Positions 2,223 through 15,824 of a stretch of DNA of 47,098 nt are shown piece by piece (positions within the stretch are counted from its first letter, which is position 1; each line of letters starts with the position of its first letter). The position numbers and the translations under genes are program-made. The notes below the pieces were generated by a model that ran no database searches, was not told the DNA's origin, and was given only the letters and a program-made list of their open reading frames with translations. This DNA comes from Nitrosopumilus sp. LS_AOA (GTDB lineage Archaea; Thermoproteota; Nitrososphaeria; Nitrososphaerales; Nitrosopumilaceae): the NCBI GenBank assembly GCA_001543015.1, contig LFLC01000004.1:1-47098 (forward strand), given 5' to 3'.

Positions 2223-3005
2223 ATGGTTGGATTTTACGAAAGCAAATTATTTCAAAATCGTTTTGTTGCATCCCTAGTGATATGGGGATTAATGCTATGG
2301 ATGAGGATACACATCATATTTTTCCCGTTTAGATATATCAATAAATCAAATATTGTCAAAAAGATAGGTAGTGAGAAAATAAAAAAAATAGATATTTTTT
2401 CAAACGATAAATTATTTTTGAAGGTGATTGTAGTTTTCATAATAATTATAATTGGAATAATCATTCCACTGGAGTTAATTGGATTAGAATTTAGTAACAA
2501 TGCAACGTTAGTTGTAGAAATTGGGGTGGGAATAGTAATCGCATTGTTTGTTCATAAGGCATTTCGTAAATCTGAAAAGGATAACCAAAAAACATTAGAA
2601 GAAATTCGAAAGATGGTCAGAATAGACTATACGACATCTTCTGATGTTAAAAAGGATCTAGATGAAAAATTCCTACAAGGATTTAATGAATTGAAACTGC
2701 AAACAAATCATATGTTAAGGAATATACAAGATAAAGAAAATAGTAGTAATGAGCAAATAAAAAAAGACATTCCAGGTATGCTTTCTGAATTTTCTTCTAT
2801 TAAAGAGAAAATTGATCAAAAACTCAATAAAATATATTTAGAAAATTCTGAAGTAATAACTGAACAAAAACAAAAGATTATTCATGAAATATTAAACAAA
2901 TCTAATTCTGAAAATTTTAACAAAAATAAATTGATACAGATATCTGCTATTGCAAAAAGAGGCATCAAGGTATTTTCTAACAAACAGGATTTATCTGAAA
3001 TTTAG
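2223..3005 (+). CDS. Hypothetical membrane protein with coiled-coil C-terminus
   Basis: A 260-residue protein. Hydrophobic segments lie near residues 14-34, 66-84 and 93-112. After them comes a long hydrophilic, heptad-like region (about 115-240) rich in Lys, Glu and Asn that looks like a coiled coil. It directly follows the 2TM protein at 1541-2221 with one intervening base, which supports translational coupling. I do not recognise the family. The minus-strand frame at 2252-2500 inside it is a shadow. Confidence 0.55.
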   Translation: MVGFYESKLFQNRFVASLVIWGLMLWMRIHIIFFPFRYINKSNIVKKIGSEKIKKIDIFSNDKLFLKVIVVFIIIIIGIIIPLELIGLEFSNNATLVVEIGVGIVIALFVHKAFRKSEKDNQKTLEEIRKMVRIDYTTSSDVKKDLDEKFLQGFNELKLQTNHMLRNIQDKENSSNEQIKKDIPGMLSEFSSIKEKIDQKLNKIYLENSEVITEQKQKIIHEILNKSNSENFNKNKLIQISAIAKRGIKVFSNKQDLSEI

Positions 3006-3223
3006 ATGTTGTCTTTACAAAAATAATTAAAAGATATTGACATTGATTCATTCATAGACTCATCAATTGATTCAATTCGTCCTAACCACAATCTTTTCCT
3101 ATCTGCATTCAAATTTACTTCTCTAGTAAGTGGTCTAATCTTTCCAATGTCTTGTATTTTATTTTGAATGATACTTGAACGAAGTCTTGAATTTCTCAAT
3201 ACATTAGAAAAGAGAGTAATCAA
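3002..3223 (-). CDS. Possible small hypothetical protein
   Basis: A 73-residue minus-strand frame opening at a TTG directly after a stop codon. The product is basic and helical, without recognisable motifs (for example NADRKRLWLGRIESIDESMN). It ends four bases inside the 3' end of the plus-strand gene at 2223-3005 and overlaps the start of a plus-strand remnant (3191-3466). Its composition is protein-like, but it could be a chance frame. No promoter or ribosome binding site decides the question. Confidence 0.3.
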   Translation of the reverse strand: MITLFSNVLRNSRLRSSIIQNKIQDIGKIRPLTREVNLNADRKRLWLGRIESIDESMNESMSISFNYFCKDNI

Positions 3224-3466
3224 TTAGATGAATCCGAGTTATGTGGTCTTGATGATTTCAGTTATGAGATATATCCGAATGATTCAGAGATTGATAAAAA
3301 ATTCAAGGAATTTGCTACGAGGGTATTGGAGTTGAAACCAAAAGATGTCAAAGTATTTGGAATTTCTAAACAGACATTGTGGAATGCTGTGAATAAAATT
3401 AACAATAATCAATTTTATAGGATATCAAAAATCATGAAAATTAAATTTATAGAAATCTACTTATGA
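3191..3466 (+). pseudogene. ORF remnant resembling the C-terminal tail of Cas1
   Basis: A plus-strand frame is open from the stop at 3188-3190 to a TGA at 3464-3466, with no ATG near its beginning. The last 60 residues are protein-like: acidic (YEIYPNDSEIDKKFKEFATR), then VLELKPKDVKVFGISKQTLW and a basic end. From memory, many archaeal Cas1 proteins end with a comparable segment (a 'W..LGISKGTLHYMK'-type helix-turn-helix tail). Nothing of the Cas1 catalytic domain is present and I see no CRISPR array. It is probably a decayed gene end. The Cas1 link is a guess from recalled sequences. Confidence 0.3.
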
Positions 3467-3487
3467 TAATATTCTGTTAATCTTTTG

Positions 3488-4195
3488 ATGAAATTCAGAT
3501 CTATAAATTTTGGATTGATCGTACTCTTTTCATTTTTCTTCCTAATGTCATTAAATCAAATACATGCAGAGGAAATAGAATCTTCGTCAACCATTTCTGA
3601 AAAATTGATTGGTATTGAAAATAATGTAAAAATAATCAAAAATCAACATCAGAGTTCAAACAGTGATGAAAATCTGAATCTACCGATTGCTCTATTTACG
3701 GGTGTGGCAATTCCACTGGGACTTTTGATATATCAACCAATACGATCTAAACGAACACTGGTAAATCAAAACTCTGTATCTTTAATTAAAGAAATTGAAT
3801 CTAATGAAGGTGCTTTAACTGGAAAACAAGATTATCCTATTGTAAGTTATACAGGATTAGATAATGAAAAATCTTCAATTAAATATACTAATGCTTTTTT
3901 GGATTATGATAGTTATGAAAATCTAATTAATTCTGGTCAATTTTCTTATTTTGTTCCTGAGACTCAATTTTCGCTTAGGGAACTGTACACTAGAATTAAA
4001 GATCATGATAGAACTATGAAATACATCGATGAGTTAGAAGATAAATTCAAACTTGAATTCCCAGACGACAACAAAAAATTCTTACAAGCCGTAGCAAGAT
4101 ATGAAGTAGTTCTAACTTTATGGGAATCCCAAATTCTAGAATTAATCCCATCTACAAAAATAAACTTGGAAAATGAAAAAAAGTTTGTAATCTAA
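3488..4195 (+). CDS. Hypothetical exported or membrane-anchored protein
   Basis: A 235-residue protein from the ATG at 3488; a TTG three bases earlier would add one residue. It begins with a signal-like segment (FGLIVLFSFFFLMS, then HAEE at the likely cleavage point). A second hydrophobic segment lies near residues 64-82, followed by a soluble C-terminal domain of about 150 residues with a helical end (DRTMKYIDELEDKF). I do not recognise it. Its stop overlaps by a few bases the 3' end of the convergent small gene at 4192-4317. Being next to the small-protein cluster does not by itself suggest a function. Confidence 0.55.
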   Translation: MKFRSINFGLIVLFSFFFLMSLNQIHAEEIESSSTISEKLIGIENNVKIIKNQHQSSNSDENLNLPIALFTGVAIPLGLLIYQPIRSKRTLVNQNSVSLIKEIESNEGALTGKQDYPIVSYTGLDNEKSSIKYTNAFLDYDSYENLINSGQFSYFVPETQFSLRELYTRIKDHDRTMKYIDELEDKFKLEFPDDNKKFLQAVARYEVVLTLWESQILELIPSTKINLENEKKFVI

Positions 4196-4317
4196 TCTGT
4201 GGTTTTTTCATCTTTTTCTGTATTTTTCTTTGGACGAGATTTTAACGGGGCATTTCTAGAGGCTGTTGCAATTGTCCATTTTGATTTCTTTTCTTTATTG
4301 GAATCCTTATTTTCCAT
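4192..4317 (-). CDS. Charged microprotein with SRxAPLKxRP core (copy B)
   Basis: A 41-residue frame, ATG at 4317 and TAG at 4192-4194. The product is strongly charged: a Lys/Glu/Asn-rich head, the core ASRNAPLKSRP (residues 19-29), then a Lys/Glu/Thr/Asp tail. The same core occurs in three neighbouring minus-strand frames: ETRQAPSKKRP at 4307-4435, PSRSAPLKKR at 4482-4594 and ASRTAPLKARP at 5445-5555. Recurrence of one motif in the same strand, size and position within four short frames is strong evidence that it is real. The start overlaps the stop of copy A (ATG...TAA), suggesting translational coupling. No membrane segment or known domain is seen. Function unknown; it is probably disordered. 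Confidence 0.6.
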   Translation of the reverse strand: MENKDSNKEKKSKWTIATASRNAPLKSRPKKNTEKDEKTTD

Positions 4318-4435
4318 CTGAGGAATCACTTGGTCTTTTTTTTGACGGTGCCTGTCTAGTTTCGTATATTGGTTTTCTATCCCCTAAAAGTCCACTTTTA
4401 TCTGGTTTTGATTTTTTATCTTTTGATTCTACCAT
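4307..4435 (-). CDS. Charged microprotein with TRxAPSKKRP core (copy A)
   Basis: A 42-residue frame with ATG at 4435. The head is MVESKDKKSKPDKSG, followed by the core ETRQAPSKKRP (residues 25-35) and the tail SDSSDGK. The core is a diverged version of the SRxAPLKxR motif in copies B, C and D. An AGGAGGG Shine-Dalgarno sequence (4444-4450) lies 8 bases before the ATG, an ideal spacing and unusual in a genome where many transcripts look leaderless. This strongly supports the start. The plus-strand frame at 4266-4469 is antisense to copies A and B and is rejected. Function unknown. Confidence 0.6.
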   Translation of the reverse strand: MVESKDKKSKPDKSGLLGDRKPIYETRQAPSKKRPSDSSDGK

Positions 4436-4443
4436 GATATTGT

Positions 4444-4450
4444 CCCTCCT
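4444..4450 (-). promoter_or_regulatory. Shine-Dalgarno site for microprotein A
   Basis: The minus strand reads AGGAGGG, complementary to the 3' end of 16S rRNA, 8 bases before the ATG at 4435. It fixes the start of the 42-residue gene. A second AGGAGG lies within copy C (about 4569-4574). Confidence 0.6.
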
Positions 4451-4481
4451 TGTGAATATTAAGTCTTAAAAATAATTCTTT

Positions 4482-4594
4482 CTAATCCGCAGTTACTCCA
4501 GAATCTGATTCTGTAGTGGGTGTGACTATTCTTTTCTTTAACGGGGCACTTCTTGATGGCCATACACTCCTCCTTCAACTTTTTTATCTGCCAT
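4482..4594 (-). pseudogene. Frameshifted microprotein with SRSAPLKKR core (copy C)
   Basis: The minus strand begins ATG at 4594 (MADKKVEGGVYG...), but that frame stops early. The frame ending at the TAG at 4482-4484 reads WPSRSAPLKKR and then IVTPTTESDSGVTAD, with no start of its own. The span is 113 bases, so one missing base or two extra bases around 4564-4567 would restore a 36-37 residue protein. That matches intact copy D (36 residues) in length and motif. Either the gene is recently broken or the assembly has an indel. An AGGAGG followed by an out-of-frame ATG (about 4562) lies at the break; a short start there would give an unrelated peptide. Confidence 0.5.
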
Positions 4595-4610
4595 GATATC
4601 TTAATTATTA

Positions 4611-5437
4611 TTATGAGTTATTAAAATTAACATAGTTTTCAAAGCTAAAAGTACCATCAAAATTATAGCATTTTGCAGAATCTAAATCATATGCATGTGC
4701 AATTTTATTTGAAAATAATTTTATCGTTTCTTCTATCTTAGCATCGGATAAATCATTCAAATTGATTTCTTTTTTTATCAATATATTTTTGTGATAAGTC
4801 TCTGTTATGTTGCGACATGATTAGTATCGTAAATGCCTTGCCAAGTTATTCCATCTCTATCCGTTTTACCTTTGAATCCAGTTAAGCTAAGAACATCACT
4901 GTTTCTAATAATTATGCGTAGATCTATATTTCCAGAAAATTTAATTTTAGAATAATATTTTTTAAAAAAATACAAAAAACACCAAAAAGCCATAGTTATT
5001 CTTCCTAAACTGAGCCCTATTGGTTCATCCCTACCGCCACCATAAATCATAGGGAATGTGAATCCTTGTTCTATGAACCCATTTTCATAATATTCTACAT
5101 ATTGTCTTATTCGTCCATTAAAATCATCATTTAAAATTAATGAATCCACATCAAAATGTTCTTTAGATGTTTTTAGATAATTAATTTCATAATCTTGAAT
5201 TGTAATTGTTGAATGTTCTTTAATCCATTGGATGTGATTTGAATCTTTTACAGCAATTTCCATTAAATCTGTAGGACATGCTGAAAATAATACAAACGGA
5301 ATATCCTTTTTAGATTCCGAATTTGCATCATCGTGTAATCGTCTAGAATTATGATTAAGGCCAAAATTTTCAGATTCAAGATCAAGCAAATTTCTAAACT
5401 CTAGAAATTTCTCAAAATCTTGCTTTTCAGATGTCAA
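4611..5437 (-). pseudogene. Hypothetical protein gene split by a frameshift
   Basis: The first part (TTG at 5437, stop at 4805) gives 210 residues. They include a hydrophobic stretch (MAFWCFLYFFKKYY) and a C-terminal IDLRIIIRNSDVLSLTGFKG. Immediately after, another frame is open to the TAA at 4611-4613 and is clearly protein-like (NLNDLSDAKIEETIKLFSNK, then IAHAYDLDSAKCYNFDGTF). It overlaps the first only around 4802-4817. Adding one base near 4810 joins them as ...DTNHVA-NITETYHKNI..., a continuous protein of about 275 residues. Alternatively the second part starts at the TTG at 4781 as a 56-residue protein. I recall similar folds in the C-terminal half of some AlbA_2/schlafen-type proteins but cannot support that. 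It starts 7 bases after microprotein D, and microproteins C, A and B follow, so it is probably the middle of their operon. Confidence 0.5.
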
Positions 5438-5444
5438 TTTACTA

Positions 5445-5555
5445 TTATTTGTCAGTGGTATCTTCAGAATCTTGATTTCTAGGTCTTGCTTTTAGTGGCG
5501 CAGTTCTGGATGCGATCAGTGCTCTTCCAGATTTCTTTTCTTCTTTTTCAGTCAT
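5445..5555 (-). CDS. Charged microprotein with SRTAPLKARP core (copy D)
   Basis: A 36-residue frame, ATG at 5555 and TAA at 5445-5447. The head is MTEKEEKKSGRALI, then ASRTAPLKARP (residues 15-25), then an Asn/Gln/Asp/Thr tail. It is the best-conserved member of the four-copy family and the first gene of the apparent minus-strand operon D, 275-residue gene, C, A, B. A TTTATTATTTA-like TATA element (about 5572-5583) lies about 25 bases upstream of the ATG, consistent with a leaderless transcript. No transmembrane segment or Cys is present. Function unknown; the short basic core could bind nucleic acid or a protein groove, but that is speculation. Confidence 0.6.
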   Translation of the reverse strand: MTEKEEKKSGRALIASRTAPLKARPRNQDSEDTTDK

Positions 5556-7262: not shown

Positions 7263-7736
7263 TATATTTTCTCTAAGTTAATTTATCAGTTAACCAAAAC
7301 ATTAAAGTTTCTAATTACTTGTTAATTATTCATGTTGATCTGCAAGACAACAAACTTTTTGTAAATTTAATTCTCATATTATTTAAATTTTAATTGTATG
7401 AACCCGATTATACAACCGACACTAATCCGGTCGGGTCCGAACCATTTTTGAGACAATTAAAACTCTCATAGAGATTTGATGAATCAGTTCAACACTCATC
7501 ATGATTTTCATGAACTGGGAATTTGAAAGTAAAAGACCGTTATCTGATAGTCATTCAGTGGGGAGTGACAATAGGAAAGACAGCCCTTTACCTATTATTA
7601 TAATGTGAATGTATGATTTATGATTGGCGATCTAGTATATTGGTTTCAAAAAATATGATGATTTTTCATTCACTAGTACGATGTAATCAACGATCAAAAA
7701 GTGATTATAATGATATTATAATAAAAGCAATAGATT
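7263..7736. other. Gene-free region with several hairpins
   Basis: No coding frame is visible upstream of the helicase gene. CCGAC/GTCGG arms around 7417-7433 flank a 9-base loop and include the CCGGTCGG motif also seen at 79-86. CAGTTCA (about 7484) pairs perfectly with TGAACTG (about 7511). AATAGG...CCTATT (about 7570-7600) has AAG/CTT inside. The region may encode a structured RNA or hold the promoter and leader of the XPB-Bax1 operon. No C/D-box pair is clear. Confidence 0.3.
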
Positions 7737-14364: not shown

Positions 14365-15705
14365 TTATTTTTTGTCTTTTTTGATGGCGTTTAATTCCGA
14401 ACGCATTATTTCCATTTCCTCATGAACCTTTTTGTATTCTTTTTGTAGATTTCTTGTAAAAAACTCATCTTGATATCTTGTTATGGTGTACTCTTTTTGT
14501 CGTTTTATTAGTTCATCCACTTCTTTAATTTTCTCTTCAAGCTGTATTTTCTCAGCCTTTTCTTGTTCCCCTTTTTCTATTGCAACCTCCAAACTTAGTG
14601 GTTTTCCACATTTGGAGCAAATCTTTGAATCATACGAATTTGGTATGTTGCAAATATGGCAAATTTTTGGTCTGCTTACAATATCTTCATTTTTGCTAGT
14701 TGAGATTCCATAATGCTTGAAGATGGCCTCCTCAACATCTGAGTTCATCATGTGTTCATACCGTCCTGGCATCTTTGATCCTGATGACCATCCATACCTC
14801 TTTTTTTGTAGAGATTCTGTAAGAAACATTCCAGTTTTTGTAGCACCTGTATGACGGAATAGATTTGGCCAAATTCGCTTGTGAATTTGAGCAACATCAC
14901 AAATTCTCTGTAGTCTTTTCCTCATGGCGTGATATGACCATGATTCTCCAAACTTTTTTTCATTCATTGCAATCCATAATGGTGCTTCAGGATCAGAATT
15001 GTTTGGATGTTTATCAAAGTATGATGCCAAGTCTGGCACACATTCTATTACTCTAACTGGTCTTGGACCTGTCTTTCCATCAACTACAATCACTGCCCCC
15101 TTGTCATCAAATTTTACATGTTTTATTTGACGACTCAGAATTTCTCCTGGTCTACAAGCTAAATCTGAAAAAGTATGAATGAACGCTCTGTCTCTAAGAT
15201 TCTCTCCACATGCTTTGAGTAGTGAATTCTTTTCAGCTTCTGTGATTAGCATATCTGCAGTAAGGTTCTCTCTTGGCTTTTTGATTCTAATCCAACTAGT
15301 TTCTGTGGGGTCTCCTACTGATTTTTGGTCCCTTGAATCAAACTTTAACCATCTATAGAAATTCTTTAGAATTTTTTTATGATCTGATGTTGTGTTTGTT
15401 TCTTGACCCTCTTTGCTGAATTTCTTGTTAAAATTATACACCAATTCTTCAATGTCTTCTTTGTTAGCCTCATTCCAATCCTTCTTTAGCATTCTTGAAA
15501 GACTAAGTAATGTTCCAAGAATCTTTGAGCGTCTTGCATCTGACAATGATTCGTTTACTAAAACTCTATCAAATTTTTTCATTATCTGAAAATTGTTTTG
15601 GCTCAAATCTTTTTGCATCAATGCAAAGGTACGGAAAATAATTCTGTCATAATTGTATAATTTTATTCCATCTTGTCTATTGCCTGAAATCTGCTGTTTT
15701 GACAT
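14365..15705 (-). CDS. Tyrosine recombinase/integrase with zinc ribbon and coiled coil
   Basis: A 446-residue site-specific recombinase. An N-terminal SAM-like core-binding domain (about 20-140) is followed by the catalytic domain: R185 in LACRPGEIL, K211 in VVDGKTGP, R284-H285 in NLFRHTGATK, and the likely nucleophile Y316 in MPGRYEHMM. The H-x-x-R box reads N281-L-F-R284, so the usual first His is Asn. After the catalytic domain are a CxxC...CxxC zinc ribbon (C349, C352, C363, C366) and a Lys/Glu coiled coil to the C-terminus, making it much longer than XerA. It lies 45 bases from the 3' end of tRNA-Glu on the same strand, as expected for an element integrated at the tRNA. Confidence 0.85.
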   Translation of the reverse strand: MSKQQISGNRQDGIKLYNYDRIIFRTFALMQKDLSQNNFQIMKKFDRVLVNESLSDARRSKILGTLLSLSRMLKKDWNEANKEDIEELVYNFNKKFSKEGQETNTTSDHKKILKNFYRWLKFDSRDQKSVGDPTETSWIRIKKPRENLTADMLITEAEKNSLLKACGENLRDRAFIHTFSDLACRPGEILSRQIKHVKFDDKGAVIVVDGKTGPRPVRVIECVPDLASYFDKHPNNSDPEAPLWIAMNEKKFGESWSYHAMRKRLQRICDVAQIHKRIWPNLFRHTGATKTGMFLTESLQKKRYGWSSGSKMPGRYEHMMNSDVEEAIFKHYGISTSKNEDIVSRPKICHICNIPNSYDSKICSKCGKPLSLEVAIEKGEQEKAEKIQLEEKIKEVDELIKRQKEYTITRYQDEFFTRNLQKEYKKVHEEMEIMRSELNAIKKDKK

Positions 15706-15750
15706 CTAGTATATAATAGAATGAACAGGGTATTAAACCAGAATGATAAT

Positions 15751-15824
15751 GCTCCCATCGGGATTTGAACCCGAGTCTTTGGCTTGAGAAGCCAAAATGC
15801 TTAACCGGACTACACTATAGGAGC
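15751..15824 (-). tRNA. tRNA-Glu (anticodon CTC)
   Basis: Read on the minus strand, the 74-base sequence folds as a cloverleaf. The acceptor is GCTCCTA/TGGGAGC with one G-U pair. The anticodon stem is TTGGC/GCCAA around TTCTCAA (anticodon CTC, reading GAG). The T arm is CGGG-TTCAAAT-CCCG. No intron and no encoded CCA is seen. The start GCTCCTATAGTGTAGTCCGG is typical of archaeal tRNA-Glu. Its 3' end faces the integrase gene, so it is a likely attachment site. Confidence 0.93.

Follow-up and report, generated by a model that had tools for sequence, protein, structure and literature searches.

Orphan genes for small proteins, as outlined in smORF catalogues (PMC11364881) and in the enterobacterial microproteome (PMC11188072), encode fewer than 50 amino acids, fall below the usual gene-calling length, have a narrow taxonomic range and lie in accessory regions; the locus described here is like them in these respects, but it differs in that four local paralogues share one linear motif and in that there is no orthologue to prove selection. 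The cryptic integrated elements and islands outlined for the Thaumarchaeota (PMC6563490) likewise carry accessory genes of unknown function, and a tyrosine-integrase-like gene by a tRNA-Glu gene is present on the contig studied here as well. In contrast to those elements, no proven element boundary surrounds the region at 4.2-5.5 kb, and the integrase and tRNA genes lie about 9-10 kb from the microproteins, across XPB/Bax1. RAPP arrest peptides (PMC10951233) are also encoded by short frames with an Arg/Ala/Pro motif, and one of the frames reported here lies just before a larger gene, whereas the microprotein motif is RxAPxK and there is nothing for the last copy of the unit to regulate. The protein encoded by the larger gene is found in DAC/TIR defence neighbourhoods (NCBIfam NF053872 DS2_3_antiphage; Pfam DACNG/DACNH/DAC; TIR_2), from which, however, the microproteins are absent.

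The window, i.e. the whole stretch of 47,098 nucleotides of contig LFLC01000004.1 from the marine-type archaeon Nitrosopumilus sp. LS_AOA that was analysed, encodes on its minus strand, at 4192-5555, four copies of the core [ST]R-x-A-P-[LS]-K-x-R. A degenerate core pattern gave four matches in the whole window, exactly these copies, versus 0.01 expected, and none of 100 shuffles of the window reached four matches. In agreement with the shared core that the original prediction had put forward, the top direct-repeat family (D1) of a repeat search that was blind to the motif consisted of exactly the four 20-base cores, which are irregularly spaced (100, 196 and 954 bases):

4241-4260, minus strand: D1 copy, core of m5 (reference copy of the repeat search)
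4341-4360, minus strand: D1 copy, core of m4, 75% match to the 4241-4260 copy
4537-4556, minus strand: D1 copy, core of m2, 90% match to the 4241-4260 copy
5491-5510, minus strand: D1 copy, core of m1, 75% match to the 4241-4260 copy

When a stricter core pattern was applied to the whole 1.93-Mb genome, three sites only were found, all of them at the 4192-5555 locus. The frames that carry the cores, and the larger gene between them, are the following:

5445-5555, minus strand: m1, open frame with ATG start, 36 aa, core ASRTAPLKARP, protein MTEKEEKKSGRALIASRTAPLKARPRNQDSEDTTDK
4611-5437, minus strand: frame-disrupted homologue of a 272-aa, apparently defence-associated protein, with an intact homologue in genome G130 and a TIR-fused relative in genome G259
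4482-4594, minus strand: m2, probable broken paralogue, core PSRSAPLKKR, with its ATG head (MADKKVE..) and core in different frames
4307-4435, minus strand: m4, open frame with ATG start, 42 aa, core ETRQAPSKKRP, protein MVESKDKKSKPDKSGLLGDRKPIYETRQAPSKKRPSDSSDGK
4192-4317, minus strand: m5, open frame with ATG start, 41 aa, core ASRNAPLKSRP, protein MENKDSNKEKKSKWTIATASRNAPLKSRPKKNTEKDEKTTD

The proposal of four short frames of 36-42 residues held for m1, m4 and m5, which are open, but not for m2, which stops after 18 codons when read from its ATG (MADKKVEGGVYGHQEVPR). The core frame of m2 contains no usual start codon between the upstream stop and the core, and the start context of m2 is a DNA repeat of that of m4 (77% over 26 nt). 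A programmed frameshift in m2 was also weighed and set aside: in the core frame a TGA lies between the A-run and the core, and no slippery site of a usual kind follows. The ideal Shine-Dalgarno sequence attributed to one of the frames was located a few bases 5' of the m4 ATG (AAGGAGGG) and is strong, and the overlap of two frames was confirmed at the end of m4, where 11 bases (ATGGAAAATAA) contain the start of m5. Seven bases separate the m1 stop from the TTG start of a 210-aa frame belonging to the larger gene, and the m5 stop overlaps the end of a convergent plus-strand gene (3485-4195). Because the adjacent m4 and m5 are in different frames, each with its own start, the possibility that the copies are pieces of one decayed long repeat gene was rejected. 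In m1, m4 and m5 the core occupies a like position, 7-12 residues before the C terminus. As predicted, Lys/Glu-rich heads and acidic Ser/Thr/Asp tails flank the cores, but it is their composition that is shared, since little of their sequence can be aligned and the similarity is that of the core only.

Full-length comparison of the m1 and m5 proteins gave a score of 70, which was reached by none of 3000 shuffles (scores of 55 or less), and judged from these sequences the two copies are homologous over their length. The full-length similarity of m4 and m5 was not significant (223 of 3000 shuffles reached it), and m4, the divergent copy (ETRQAPSKKRP), and m2 are tied to the other copies mainly by the core. 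Because no orthologue was found, selection was judged between paralogues only and over 11 codons only. In m1 versus m5, the only pair that could be judged, 11 of the 33 core bases differ, seven of them at third positions, and, unlike the neutral pattern that the original prediction named as refuting it, seven codons differ synonymously and two change the amino acid, 9 of the 11 residues being kept. Random mutation kept as many residues in about 1 of 10,000 trials of a crude simulation. When all four copies were considered, the enrichment of change at third positions was not significant, either overall (P = 0.12) or on conserved codons (P = 0.08). We also computed a coding score from codon log-odds, with 24 longer window genes as the training set. 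By this score m1 and m4 stood at the 52nd percentile of the true in-frame stretches and m5 at the 30th, and all three exceeded every off-frame stretch tested, while the core frame of m2 (-0.03) lay under every in-frame gene stretch. Read antisense, the DNA of these frames came close to their scores in its best frame (0.22-0.24), as real genes also do. Taken together, the paralogy, the codon use, the m1/m5 conservation, the Shine-Dalgarno sequence of m4 and the m4/m5 overlap suggest that m1, m4 and m5 are probably genes, which would be translated, and that m2 is probably a broken paralogue.

The view that these repeated paralogues, below the usual gene-calling length, are undescribed agreed with searches of Pfam, PHROGs, NCBIfam and PADLOC, in which no microprotein match reached any family cut-off, and Rfam gave no match to the repeats. 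The homologous short frames that had been expected in related genomes were not found as far as the searches reach: degenerate patterns revealed no microprotein homologue in all 250 genomes of the family or in 400 genomes of the order, nor was there any in GTDB contigs, IMG/VR contigs, phage records or plasmid records. The searches comprised a protein query (61 genomes), a profile (100 genomes) and degenerate patterns (100, 151, 250 family and 400 order genomes); with queries as short as these a match can hardly be confirmed at E <= 1e-3, and the patterns would miss a core that had diverged. In 99 relatives the stricter core pattern produced six scattered single matches in total, none in a comparable frame. 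Degenerate-pattern matches from relatives and viral contigs that were read in frame (L005, L006, L008-L011, L016-L019, L021-L028, L030, L032, L065-L067, L118 and L119) were rejected as high-G+C, out-of-frame or unrelated, with no head-core-tail layout. The 36-aa protein matches in G021 (E 0.19) and G048 (E 0.5) were at chance level; the motif is absent from the one frame translated at the G021 site. The order-wide pattern matches and the weak profile matches were isolated sites, about as frequent as chance would give, as judged by their scatter and not by frame. Since no related short frames were found and the m1/m5 change is non-neutral, the family looks real but confined to one genome. The microproteins are thus probably a lineage-restricted orphan family, present in one genome among those searched, and not a widespread peptide system.

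The best DNA match to this region, genome G065 (93% over the stretch), shares DNA only from window position 7511, some 200 bases ahead of the gene for the XPB helicase, and all to the left of this synteny break differs. Because G065 has other genes there, the 4.2-5.5 kb segment lies in a variable region adjoining XPB-Bax1. Two adjacent genes of this region, m2 and the larger gene, are frame-disrupted, and since this affects one of the four copies together with the neighbouring larger gene the unit may be decaying; the breaks themselves may be real or may be assembly errors. Further along the window, at 14365-15824, a tyrosine-integrase-like gene lies directly beside a tRNA-Glu (CTC) gene, which suggests that an integrated element lies between this tRNA gene and the XPB-Bax1 pair. 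Parts of a stretch of about 450 bases (2998-3454) recur at several places in several genomes of the genus; it encodes a fragment, ELKPKDVKxFGISKQTLxN, that recalls the Cas1 C terminus or a transposon remnant and gave no Pfam match.

The larger gene had been described as one of 275 residues, but it is not a single open frame, consisting instead of a 210-aa frame (4805-5437, TTG start) and an out-of-frame remainder (4617-4823). An AlphaFold model of the 210-aa frame was uninformative (mean pLDDT 36), and the domain of about 270 aa gave no match in Pfam, PADLOC or NCBIfam. G130, a genome of the same family and another genus, contains an intact 272-aa homologue (75-76% identical, L069 11160-11978), preceded by an 84-aa gene and followed by the gene for a 594-aa DACNG-DACNH-DAC protein (L069 12024-13808) that matches NCBIfam DS2_3_antiphage over approximately its full length, at 573 bits and thus below the cut-off of 630. 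By eye, the usual RHR motif region of the 594-aa protein reads RYN. A gene further upstream in G130 matches a TIR effector model, and a fragment similar to that encoded at 2998-3454 lies near this defence locus (L069 13812-13964). In G259, which belongs to the same genus as the window, a 36% identical domain follows an N-terminal TIR_2 domain in one fusion protein (L075 2691-3908), with OLD-like and NYN genes nearby. Free-standing by a DAC-type gene in G130, TIR-fused in G259 and disrupted in the window, the domain appears from this company to be defence-associated. The G130 and G259 loci contain no microproteins, and the 84-aa gene of G130 is without the motif. Because neither relative has microproteins, the link between microproteins and larger gene is not conserved.

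It could be argued that the locus is non-coding and that the 20-base direct repeats work as DNA or RNA elements, either to bind proteins or as processed RNA, and fall within short open frames by chance. The repeat is indeed visible at the DNA level, m2 is not in a usable frame and the mismatches among all four copies show no significant third-position bias; nevertheless, the divergence of m1 and m5 keeps amino acids, with seven synonymous versus two changed codons, three copies are similarly placed in complete frames with gene-like codon use, the full-length m1/m5 similarity goes beyond 3000 shuffles, Rfam offers no match and the irregular spacing is unlike that of iterons or CRISPR, and we consider this reading quite improbable. 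A role as leader or arrest peptides, which would halt the ribosome and so govern the following gene (compare RAPP, PMC10951233), is very improbable, because m5 is the last gene of its unit, with only a convergent gene beyond and none downstream on its strand, the core is RxAPxK and not RAPP/RGPP-like, the two relatives of the larger gene are without such a leader and at least seven further residues follow the core in each copy. These observations have to be set against the position of m1, which ends 7 bases before the larger gene, the overlap of m4 with m5 and an Arg/Ala/Pro-rich core that recalls RAPP-type stallers.

The same-strand arrangement and close spacing around the larger gene might also mean that the microproteins are small antitoxin-like, adaptor or inhibitor proteins that partner the defence-type protein next to them, the whole unit being a defence module. 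Relatives of the larger gene lie by a DAC-domain anti-phage-type gene, or are fused to TIR near OLD-like/NYN genes, and in G130 another small gene (84 aa) directly precedes the 272-aa gene. However, neither relative has microproteins, the motif is missing from the 84-aa gene, and because the larger gene is broken here such a partner would have lost its target, so we regard a partnership of this kind as unlikely. The suggestion that the products are secreted or ribosomally modified precursors, or a classical toxin-antitoxin pair, found no support and appears extremely improbable: although a row of short paralogous genes is the layout of some precursor clusters, the microproteins have neither a signal or hydrophobic segment nor Cys and belong to no known toxin or antitoxin family, and the surrounding unit has no recognisable modifying enzyme, protease or transporter, RiPP enzyme, protease and exporter families being absent among the genes tested at 2.2-7.3 kb.

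The explanation that we favour, at about even chances, is a young, tandem-duplicated family of probably disordered microproteins that carry one short linear binding motif and sit on a defence-type island, which is variable and in part decaying. It builds on what was observed: the paralogy, intact frames with coding-like codon usage, amino-acid conservation in the best pair and restriction to one genome among those searched. The family would have been born as one small gene and then multiplied by local duplication, leaving m1, m4 and m5 intact and m2 broken, and each copy would present one conserved motif, [ST]R-x-A-P-[LS]-K-x-R-P, with a Lys/Glu-rich head before it and an acidic Ser/Thr/Asp tail after it. 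The Arg/Lys/Pro core may dock on a cellular macromolecule, either protein or nucleic acid, a role to which the architecture points, and the charged arms would keep the peptide soluble. Docking is favoured because a single motif lies in charged, Cys-free and otherwise free-running chains of 36-42 aa; that the product is folded, secreted or modified is made less likely by this length and by the lack of Cys and of hydrophobic segments. Expressed from one minus-strand unit, the copies might regulate the accessory island or serve it as accessory peptides. The defence-type neighbour would be the obvious candidate partner, although its relatives do not support it, and a more specific version, in which near-redundant, defence-linked archaeal peptides use the SRxAPLKxRP docking motif to regulate or mark a TIR/DAC-associated protein, is quite improbable. 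The original prediction is thus partly supported: its observation was mostly right, with details corrected here, and its interpretation half right, with function a matter of conjecture.

If translated, these microproteins would clearly exemplify a small-protein family of very recent origin that is multiplying around a single short motif; the archaeal lineage concerned is hard to cultivate, and gene callers would miss the family. The 272-aa defence-associated domain may matter more than the microproteins themselves.
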